Part shown: positions 1,079 through 2,643 of the stretch, in pieces
Layout: every line of letters begins with the position of its first letter
Position numbering within the stretch: the first letter of the stretch is position 1
From: Chloroflexota bacterium
GTDB taxonomy: Bacteria > Chloroflexota > Limnocylindria > Limnocylindrales > CSP1-4
NCBI GenBank assembly: GCA_021777365.1
Contig: JAJYDP010000416.1
Coordinates: 1-5,084 of the forward strand
Direction of reading: 5' to 3'
Length of the DNA: 5,084 nucleotides
Made by a program: the position numbers and the translations under genes
The notes under the pieces: model-generated
Database searches by the model: none
What the model saw: the letters and a program-made list of their open reading frames with translations, nothing else
Told to the model about the DNA's origin: nothing

Positions 1079-1096
1079 GAGGCCGCGCAGATAGGC
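1079..1096 (+). repeat. Left terminal inverted repeat of the IS
   Basis: GAGGCCGCGCAGATAGGC is the exact reverse complement of 2626-2643. A match of 18 bases without mismatch, placed outside both genes of the element, defines its left end. Identity stops on the inner side at 1097. Confidence 0.93.
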
Positions 1097-1296
1097 CTCG
1101 TCAGCTGACGCGCTGCGCCGGCTTGGGTGGCAGTGGATCGGGGGCTTCCGAGTCCGTCGTGCCGGCCGAGGACCCTCCGGAGGAGCTCGCGGCTGCCGCA
1201 GAAGCCGCAACTCGGGCGCGCTGACGCGCGCTGGGCGCCGTTCGAGACACGGCCGTCCGGCTCGGGCCGGACGATTCGCCGATCCCGGGCGACCGA
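1097..1296. other. Non-coding arm of the IS, two hairpins, no gene seen
   Basis: These 200 bp between the left repeat and the transposase stop hold no convincing gene. Visible structures are a 12-bp palindrome cgtcagctgacg (1099-1110) just inside the terminal repeat, and an 8-bp-stem hairpin (cgtccggc 1254-1261, loop tcgg, gccggacg 1266-1273). The hairpin could act as a transcription terminator for the minus-strand transposase, although no T-run follows. The subterminal palindrome could be a second transposase contact. Confidence 0.5.
1254..1273 (-). terminator. Possible transposase terminator hairpin
   Basis: A perfect 8-bp GC stem with a TCGG tetraloop sits 24 bases after the transposase stop codon in the minus-strand direction. 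The downstream side lacks a U-tract, so it is at best an atypical terminator of the kind seen in high-GC bacteria. It may instead be simple RNA structure. Confidence 0.35.
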
Positions 1297-2166
1297 TCAG
1301 CGGTTCCAGCGGTCCGCCCAGGCGATGAGCTTGATCGCGAGGATGAACACGAGCGCGAGGGCCAGCTGGGCGAGCCGATGGGCGATCCGGCGGTCGGTGT
1401 TGCGCCGCAGCTGGCCGAAGTTGGCGAGCCACGCGTTCGTCCGCTCGACCGGCCAGCGCAGCCCGAGCGGCTGACGGTTCCTCGTGCCCCTGGCCGTGCC
1501 CCGCGGGCGCCGCCGCGCGCACACGACGTCGGACAGGCCGTGCTCGCCGCACGTCGTGCGGGCGACCGCCGAGTCGTAGCCCCGGTCGAGATGGAGCGTC
1601 TCGATGTCGGCGAGCAGACCCCGGGCGCCGACGGCGTCGAGCGTCGGCCCCAGGAGCTTCGCGTCGTGGCGGTTCGCGGCGTCGGTCGCCCAGCCGATCG
1701 GGATCCCGTGTCGGTCGGTGGCGACCGACCACTTCCAGCCGCGCTTGCCCCGGTCGGTCGGGTTCGGACCGGTCCCCTCGCCGCCGGTCGGGGCCTTGTG
1801 GATCGAGCCGTCGAGGGCGACCTCGGACAGATCGAGCCCGACGATCCGGTCGTACGCGGCGCGCGCCTCCTCGACCAGCCGGTCGAACACGGCGGCCCCG
1901 AGCCACTCGTCGCGCCGGTTGCGCAGCGTCGTCGCCCCGGCCGGCGCGAGCCGGCCGGCGGTCCGCCACGAGCAGCCGGTGACGAGCCGGACGAGGATGC
2001 CGACGAAGCAGGCGCGATCGCCGATCCGGGGACGATGACAGCCCAGCGGATGGCGGTCCGGGGGTCGGGCCGGGAGCAGCGGTTCGACCGCCGCCCAGAC
2101 TGCCGCCACGACGCGCGGGTCGAGCGCCTGCCCACTCCCTCCGACGGCTCGCGGGTCCGTCGCCAT
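1297..2166 (-). CDS. IS5-family DDE transposase
   Basis: This 289-aa protein cuts and joins the ends of the surrounding insertion sequence. The N-terminal part (about 20-90) is the usual IS5 helix-rich DNA-binding region (VEPLLPARPPDRHPLG..., then GCSWRTA). The RNase-H-like catalytic core carries D119 (VALDGSIHKAPTGGEGTG), D194 (LHLDRGYDS) and E241 (RWPVERTNAWLANF). R237 fits the R(3)E part of the IS5 Y(2)R(3)E(6)K signature, whereas the Y and K positions are L234 and A248. Length is normal for the family and no frameshift is seen, so it is probably functional. The ATG at 2166 is the first plausible start, with no clear Shine-Dalgarno sequence, consistent with low transposase expression. It is transcribed divergently from the DUF6788-like gene, 59 bp away. 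Confidence 0.93.
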   Translation of the reverse strand: MATDPRAVGGSGQALDPRVVAAVWAAVEPLLPARPPDRHPLGCHRPRIGDRACFVGILVRLVTGCSWRTAGRLAPAGATTLRNRRDEWLGAAVFDRLVEEARAAYDRIVGLDLSEVALDGSIHKAPTGGEGTGPNPTDRGKRGWKWSVATDRHGIPIGWATDAANRHDAKLLGPTLDAVGARGLLADIETLHLDRGYDSAVARTTCGEHGLSDVVCARRRPRGTARGTRNRQPLGLRWPVERTNAWLANFGQLRRNTDRRIAHRLAQLALALVFILAIKLIAWADRWNR

Positions 2167-2225
2167 CTGGACGTAACATACATCCGGATGGAGCGTCGAT
2201 ACACGCCCCGCCGTGGAGGACCGCG
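2167..2225. promoter_or_regulatory. Divergent promoter region with 10-bp palindrome
   Basis: This 59-bp gap separates the two divergent genes of the element and must carry both promoters. It is locally less GC-rich. It holds a perfect palindrome catccggatg (2181-2190) and a TAACAT hexamer (2174-2179) that could serve as a -10 element for the plus-strand gene; its complement lies just before the transposase start. A GGAGGA Shine-Dalgarno (2215-2220) stands 5 bases before the plus-strand ATG. The palindrome is a candidate site for one regulator acting on both genes. Promoter hexamers are guesses from sequence. Confidence 0.45.
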
Positions 2226-2600
2226 ATGAAGATCACCACCGAGCAGGCCGCCGCCCGGGCCCGGATCGCCGCGGGCCTGGCCGAGACGGGCTTCGCCCTG
2301 CCGGGGACGCTGAGTCTCCAGCGCTACCGCTGCGGCAAGGCGACCTGCCGCTGCCGGGCCGATCCGCCCCAGCTCCACGGGCCATACGCCCAGTGGACCC
2401 GCAAGATCGAGGCCAAGACGGTGACCCGCCGGCTCAGCCCCTCGGAGCTGACCGACTACGGGCCGCTGTTCGACAACGCCAAGCGCCTCCGGGCCCTCGT
2501 CGCCGAGCTCCAGGCCCTCACCCTCGCGATCGTCGAGGCGGAGGCCGAGGCCACCGGGCACCCCCGGCCGCGAGCCGACCGGCGCACGCGGTCCGTCTGA
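2226..2600 (+). CDS. DUF6788-like small Cys-motif protein, IS passenger
   Basis: This 124-aa protein has no established function. An N-terminal helix (about 1-22) leads into a compact core: GTLSLQRYRCGKATCRCRADPPQLHGPY, in which C36, C41 and C43 plus H51 could bind a metal. The core continues as a basic strand region (KIEAKTVTRRLS, 60-71) and ends in a long helix (about 80-108) rich in Leu and Glu that could form a coiled coil. The pattern YRCGKxxCxC...HGPYxxxxxKxxxKTVTRRLS is one I associate with DUF6788, whose members often lie near mobile genes; this assignment is from memory. A strong Shine-Dalgarno GGAGGA supports the ATG at 2226. The gene lies inside the IS inverted repeats and diverges from the transposase, so it moves with it. 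An accessory DNA-binding or transposition-regulating role is possible but not shown. Confidence 0.82.
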   Translation: MKITTEQAAARARIAAGLAETGFALPGTLSLQRYRCGKATCRCRADPPQLHGPYAQWTRKIEAKTVTRRLSPSELTDYGPLFDNAKRLRALVAELQALTLAIVEAEAEATGHPRPRADRRTRSV

Positions 2601-2625
2601 GGCCGGCGGCGACCCTGGCCGGTGC

Positions 2626-2643
2626 GCCTATCTGCGCGGCCTC
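2626..2643 (-). repeat. Right terminal inverted repeat of the IS
   Basis: GCCTATCTGCGCGGCCTC is the exact reverse complement of 1079-1096. It begins 26 bases after the stop codon of the DUF6788-like gene, showing that this gene lies inside the element. Identity ends at 2643; TTA follows at 2644-2646. Confidence 0.93.

Follow-up and report, generated by a model that had tools for sequence, protein, structure and literature searches.

The stretch of DNA that we analysed (hereafter the window; 5,084 nucleotides) holds a 1565-bp element at 1079-2643, inside which two divergent genes lie, one for an IS5 transposase on the minus strand and one for a DUF6788 protein on the plus strand. We set the element's boundaries at these positions because its 18-bp ends are bordered by TTA at 1076-1078 and by TTA at 2644-2646. 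The features of the element are as follows.

1076-1078, left TTA flank, a candidate target duplication (sequence; TTA occurs again at 2644-2646)
1079-1096, plus strand, left terminal inverted repeat, 18 bp, perfect (repeat search; similar ends in L087, L060 and L127)
1297-2166, minus strand, IS5-family DDE transposase, 289 aa by the first ATG (ORF list, Pfam, NCBIfam)
2163-2191, palindrome and candidate operator, CCATCTGGACGTAACATACATCCGGATGG, with a 21-bp core at 2167-2187 (alignment of divergent regions)
2167-2225, divergent intergenic region, 59 bp (sequence, ORF list)
2215-2220, plus strand, ribosome-binding site GGAGGA, 5 nt before the ATG (sequence)
2226-2600, plus strand, DUF6788 accessory gene, 124 aa, with Cys36, Cys41, Cys43 and His51 conserved (Pfam, alignment)
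2626-2643, minus strand, right terminal inverted repeat, 18 bp, perfect (repeat search)
2644-2646, right TTA flank (sequence)

An inverted-repeat search of the window yielded arms at 1078-1096 and 2626-2644 that are 100% complementary over 19/19 bp, and the 18-bp end sequence GAGGCCGCGCAGATAGGC is found at 1079-1096 and 2626-2643. The first-pass annotation had placed both genes within perfect 18-bp inverted repeats, which these arms confirm, and the strong ribosome site and 59-bp divergent gap that it described were likewise found at the positions listed above. Some IS5 groups have a 3-bp target site of the form TNA. The 3-bp flanks are TTA/TTA in the window copy and TAA/TTA in a second two-gene IS5 element (L087). 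Given the TNA form and the flanks of L087, TTA on both sides is weak evidence of a target duplication. In L197, where the repeats match at 24/24 positions, TTA lies 5 nt outside the 24-bp repeat on both sides.

The outer flanks of the window element look unrelated: to the left lie a DeoR regulator and a piece of a group II intron, to the right the C-terminal portion of a cation transporter (profile searches). The window copy may therefore sit at a deletion, a rearrangement or an assembly join. The intron fragment (841-975; RF02003, D1-D4-4, 97.7 bits) spans the full model length and lies just left of the element. Between this piece and the element, the near-identical 18-bp stretches TTTCGGACAGCCAGTCCG and TTCCGGACAGCCAGTCCG lie within 1016-1056, their starts 23 bp apart. 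On the other side, a cation diffusion facilitator, represented by its C-terminal part (2644-2973; TIGR01297 positions 181-284), starts at the element's right edge. The N-terminal part was not recognised among the left-flank ORFs of the window, which suggests that the site was rearranged or the contig joined.

The minus-strand gene product scored 160.9 bits against the NCBIfam IS5 model NF033580, above the curated cut-off of 110, which upholds its earlier description as an IS5-type DDE transposase; it also matched DDE_Tnp_1 and DUF4096 in Pfam. Three motif stretches that we read as the predicted DDE sites are intact; they start at residues 118 (LDGS), 193 (LDRGYD) and 241 (ERTNA). The start of the protein is uncertain since close relatives are 278 aa long, compared with 289 aa for the window ORF. 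Set against the IS5 family, in what are presumably the IS1031/IS427-like groups, the window element shares the transposase model, perfect terminal repeats and 3-bp flanks compatible with the TNA type, and differs in having a second, divergent gene inside its ends. Its 1565 bp also stand against the 850-1200 nt reported for IS5 elements in Ralstonia in the available part of that study (PMC7371123).

The small protein scored 93.2 bits against Pfam PF20586 (DUF6788), where the cut-off is 27.2, and is therefore a full member of the family; the label "DUF6788-like" given in the first-pass annotation was right about the kinship and too cautious in its suffix. GC content by codon position in the window gene is 0.70/0.58/0.96. 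Pairwise dN/dS values (NG86) were ∼0.33 for the window and L087 genes and 0.25 for those of L060 and L197, and judged by these values the DUF6788 gene evolves under purifying selection. A spurious ORF is ruled out by the PF20586 match and the dN/dS of 0.33. Across 25 diverse members of the family, G27, C36, C41, H51, G52 and P53 are invariant and C43 is kept in at least 90%. An AlphaFold model (pLDDT 78, pTM 0.49) gives the order helix, strand, cysteine loop, two strands and long helix. From its sequence, DUF6788 is probably a cysteine-rich, metal-binding protein. At E ≤ 0.001, neither the PDB nor a viral model library yielded a structural match to the model, PDB sequence relatives were likewise absent (best E 0.17), and no resolvase or other described family was matched in Pfam or NCBIfam. 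The family is large, with at least 3,890 relatives at E ≤ 0.001 among the 7,998 candidates listed. Pfam states no function for it, and the association with mobile elements is added by our analysis. A DUF6788 core also occurs inside frames of ∼1000-1590 aa in several Chloroflexota genomes. In the one that was domain-scanned, a 1504-aa protein (L075), residues 9-60 form a DUF6788 segment that is followed by BTAD, AAA and TPR domains, and its presence in such a regulator-like protein is a weak hint of a regulatory role.

Inverted repeats were found around both genes in IS5 elements (the window copy, L087 and L197), in IS1634 elements (L055, 23/23; L188, 24/24; L059, 18/19), in an IS1380 element (L058, 14/14, with CTAA on both sides) and at an NF041680 locus (L196, 14/14). 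Repeat pairs were accepted at 5/17 loci in a first examination and at 3/6 in a second; the remaining loci examined gave no acceptable pair, and several of them are cut by contig ends. Because repeats of up to 14/14 also occur at places that were not accepted (L068), acceptance of the 14/14 pairs depends on how tightly they are placed (L058 and L196) and, for L058, also on the CTAA flanks. Copies in different surroundings could also be compared. Two 1.9-kb ISKra4 copies on one contig (L122 and L123) are 99.9% identical, have different flanks and contain both genes, which lie on the same strand with DUF6788 first. Similarly, IS1634 elements of two genomes (L055 and L188) share 96.9% identity across 2.2 kb and have different flanks. 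The transposase and DUF6788 travel together. Enclosing repeats and repeated co-travel rule out a chance neighbour or hitchhiker, and the DUF6788 gene is part of the element; the earlier suggestion that the small protein functions within the element is supported, having withstood both checks proposed with it (described below), the first only in part.

Within the IS5 group, the closest transposase relatives listed (P0121-P0131, n = 11) are 77-91% identical to the window transposase. We infer that 7/11 share a contig with a DUF6788 relative from equal lengths of the longest contig (1565, 1552, 1683, 10234, 18366, 7457 and 6878), one of which is exactly the size of the element (1565). IS5 elements with both genes were located in genomes at L087, L060, L127, L197, L198 and L200, and in decayed form at L070; both ends are visible only in the window copy, L087 and L197. 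L197 and L198, from the same genome, share 95% identity across 907 bp. When 10 genomes were searched with the end pattern GAGNSCGCGCRGATAGG, allowing up to 1 mismatch, 17 places were found, and five of these had an IS5 transposase nearby. The five correspond to elements in G001 (both ends counted), G291 and G381 (C89), plus one in G381 (C42). DUF6788 is present in 3/3 elements in which the transposase and the DUF6788 region are visible (G001, G291 and G381:C89), and its presence in G381:C42 cannot be judged because the contig stops inside the transposase. The other 12/17 places showed neither transposase nor DUF6788 in the stretch read. Transposases of at least 59% identity numbered three in 301 genomes; two have DUF6788, and none was detected beside the third, a broken copy in G193 (L128). 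The question of whether elements of this kind occur without the gene, raised in the first-pass annotation, therefore has a divided answer, with the gene in all three judgeable elements with the same ends and missing beside the broken L128. DUF6788 was absent from the ten fetched IS5 loci at 35-47% identity (L129-L138), as from all other transposase matches in the 301 genomes (∼1.5-kb flanks where the contig allowed); IS5 transposases at 35-47% identity lie outside the window element's group. Two protein scans of viral contigs returned no relative.

Full-length DUF6788 (E ≤ 1e-12) is rare and patchy in Chloroflexota, occurring in 9/301, 5/177, 14/400 and 13/110 genomes of four overlapping samples. 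These samples yielded 44 distinct places, all of which were fetched, and 38/44 of them have a transposase or recombinase no more than 1 kb from the full-length DUF6788 gene (25/30 first loci, L121 and L125 by NCBIfam, 8/14 later loci, and L192, L194 and L195). The possibility that DUF6788 sits mostly away from transposases is thus reversed. The six places without such a partner are L054, L064, L069, L191, L193 and L199; near the DUF6788 gene of L054 lies an AAA ATPase (1637-2575, minus strand) weakly like PtuA (38.2 bits, cut-off 500).

The partners belong, by best model, to eight DDE families (IS5, IS1634, IS1380, IS4, IS1182, ISNCY, ISKra4 and NF041680), and recombinases adjoin as well, namely a Xer-type tyrosine recombinase (L050) and XisF-like serine recombinases (L192 and L195). 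DUF6788 is therefore no companion of IS5 specifically, and an IS5-specific accessory gene is ruled out by its place beside other transposase families. Among these best-model names, the ISNCY matches of L049, L051 and L052 (partial ORFs), the Xer match of L050, the XisF matches of L192 and L195 and the IS701-like match of L089 fall below the NCBIfam cut-off, the integrase of L050 and the resolvase-type recombinase of L166 exceed their Pfam cut-offs, and IS4 is represented by one locus (L062), which is bordered on the opposite side by an ISNCY transposase. The transposase queries were taken partly from DUF6788 loci, with representatives confirmed by NCBIfam or Pfam, and the short or broken matches of L056, L066, L070, L127, L187, L189 and L190 are based on tblastn to these queries. 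In a control, the queries matched 0/19 regions (131 kb) of the same genomes, a result that is specific but narrow and understates other transposases because of the origin of the query set. Likewise, no transposase query matched at the 17 loci where DUF6788 itself was matched weakly or in part.

The association also extends to plasmids. In Burkholderiales plasmids, DUF6788 lies between DUF5372 (Y4bD/Y4pK) and a serine recombinase in 5/5 annotated records, two of which have identical proteins. Plasmid searches with five DUF6788 proteins returned one Polaromonas record, in which a partial gene for an IS701/IS4-like transposase lies ∼0.7 kb away from DUF6788, and the ISKra4-type query alone added seven proteobacterial plasmid records at ∼28-34% identity (the stretch is unannotated in L170 and L171). 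A three-gene unit of DUF5372, DUF6788 and serine recombinase on one strand recurs in plasmids and Chloroflexota (L166-L169, L172, L192 and L195), with DUF5372 assigned by Pfam or record annotation, and by eye in L192 and L195; this unit is possibly a recombinase-borne mobile element.

Immediately upstream of DUF6788, mostly between divergent genes, there is often a palindrome. Alignment of the divergent regions of four IS5 elements revealed the palindrome CTGGACGTATCATACGTCCAG in L127, which recurs with one mismatch in L087, imperfectly in the window and with 17-bp arms in L060. The window palindrome alone is weak (p 0.11 and 0.21 in two scorings), and it is homologous to stronger ones in L127, L200 and L197. 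Scored against dinucleotide shuffles, a palindrome upstream of DUF6788 reached p ≤ 0.01 in 8/31 loci and p ≤ 0.05 in 9/31 (L066 was too short to be scored, and the L087 segment was taken from a wrong start that was corrected in the half-site test), compared with 0/10 and 1/10, respectively, upstream of IS5 transposases without DUF6788. Among the loci read later, 9/14 reached p ≤ 0.05 versus 2/60 random segments; in this set the values of L193 and L194 are meaningless because the DUF6788 position was misplaced, and L197 and L198 represent the same element twice. A prediction fixed before these 14 loci were read, position included, held in 5/14, three of them IS5 and two of those copies of one element.

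We also applied a half-site model trained on IS5. It gave p ≤ 0.05 in 6/25 other loci versus 1/40 random segments, in a test that was designed after one ISKra4 palindrome was known, left out L123 and L066, and counted L064 as non-IS5 despite its IS5-type end. At the 14 later loci the same model gave 6/14 versus 7/60 random segments, and the six include three from IS5, the training family, and the misplaced L194. The half-sites are nearly alike in IS5 (CTGGACGTA) and in the ISKra4-type loci L063 and L191 (CTGGACGTG); otherwise, palindrome sequences differ between families. For IS1634, p ≤ 0.05 was found in 3/4 loci with DUF6788, where palindromes were already known before the comparison, and in 0/14 without; the count is effectively 2/3 versus 0/14 since L215 and L218 are near-identical. 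Of the 23 loci in that set, 4 offered no ORF that could be scored, and the redundant L202 was left out. The contrast is confounded by transposase type, which is L055 or L059 at the loci with DUF6788 and L061 at 13/14 loci without it. No significant palindrome was found upstream of DUF6788 at the IS1182, IS4 and ISNCY loci or upstream of DUF5372 at five serine-recombinase loci. Taken together, the enrichment of palindromes upstream of DUF6788 is shown statistically at the sequence level, and IS5 and IS1634 transposases without DUF6788 mostly have no such palindrome. In IS5 the palindrome sits between the divergent starts, with TAnnnT boxes visible by eye on both strands.

We propose that DUF6788 is a small, dimeric, metal-site DNA-binding autoregulator that represses both itself and the transposase and is a standing accessory of many mobile elements, a reading to which we give a probability of roughly 55% on computational evidence drawn mostly from one phylum, Chloroflexota. 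The protein would form a small dimer and combine three strands and a long C-terminal helix with a metal site of the form Cys-x4-Cys-x-Cys...His. It would bind the palindrome over the two promoters in the shared region and, once bound, repress its own gene and that of the transposase, so that transposition would be kept low after the element is established. The regulator would also have been traded between unrelated mobile elements. Metal binding, dimerisation, DNA binding and repression are all inferred here. The reading is economical because it explains the divergent layout, the first position of DUF6788 in the ISKra4 pair, the upstream palindromes and the unrelated chemistries of the partner enzymes. 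As for the earlier suggestion of a transposition regulator or target-choice factor, the regulator half is favoured by the candidate operator, and target choice found no support.

The tight link to the transposase and the co-travel of the two genes would fit a cofactor equally well, and transposition helper proteins do exist in IS21 and IS66 elements, which provide a precedent. DUF6788 could accordingly be a working part of the transposition machinery, such as an end-binding protein or an adaptor to target or host factor, with the palindrome as a loading site for it or for the transposase. We regard this as unlikely, although it is the best of the alternatives: the partners range over DDE, tyrosine and serine recombinases, whose chemistries are unrelated, and such a range argues against a direct role in strand transfer; other IS1634 members manage without DUF6788, which is absent from the stretch read at 14/18 scored loci; and the palindrome does not resemble the element ends by eye. 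Still less probable is that DUF6788 protects the element or the host against something else, such as silencing, a defence system or a toxic by-product, with regulation being secondary. Its spread over many element types does suggest a general benefit, and the ATPase at the transposase-less L054 is weakly like the retron/Septu-type PtuA, but the other identified neighbours are nearly all transposases or recombinases. That the palindrome is instead a structural DNA or RNA element, for example a hairpin shielding against outside transcription, with the role of DUF6788 lying elsewhere, would suit a symmetry that is kept while sequences differ between families, yet it is highly improbable given the position of the IS5 palindrome between divergent starts with TAnnnT boxes on both strands.

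Insertion sequences are usually seen as transposase-only, and how the simplest of them limit themselves is an old question. Control of a transposase by a divergently encoded protein from a shared promoter region is familiar from the element-encoded repressor TnpR of Tn3; the autoregulator that we propose resembles TnpR in its divergent layout and proposed control of the transposase, and differs in that DUF6788 matches no resolvase family in Pfam or NCBIfam. A full-text search found no literature naming DUF6788 or DUF5372 (most subscription papers and ISfinder were outside its scope), and the two-gene arrangement was not described in the titles or abstract openings of its results. The available portions of two papers (PMC7371123, PMC9208149) contain nothing on the DUF6788 gene. 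Recurrent extra genes of unknown function in insertion sequences are a point of likeness with ISAzba1 and ISKra4 elements, for which the accessible part of one study describes 12 elements from a single branch of transposases that carry a pRiA4_Orf3-like gene, as well as four ISKra4 elements with different genes of unknown function (PMC3942029). DUF6788 differs from what that part describes in recurring as a single family beside many kinds of transposase, together with a candidate operator.

More tentatively, and at somewhat less than even odds, DUF6788 may serve prokaryotic mobile DNA as a general control module. In this view it would be a single family of small repressors that bind metal and act on a palindromic operator of their own; eight DDE families, and elements with tyrosine or serine recombinases, would each have acquired it independently, and host BTAD/AAA/TPR regulators would have taken it up as their N-terminal domain. 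If a shared regulator does move between unrelated transposases, transposition control would itself be a mobile module, and a large unnamed family, DUF6788, would gain a function. The palindrome is a directly testable candidate operator.

An end-pattern scan of viral contigs matched eight contigs, with a single match each. Lastly, three solitary IS5-type ends (L225, L233 and L235), with TAA outside and neither gene in the stretch read, may be remnants or small non-autonomous elements.
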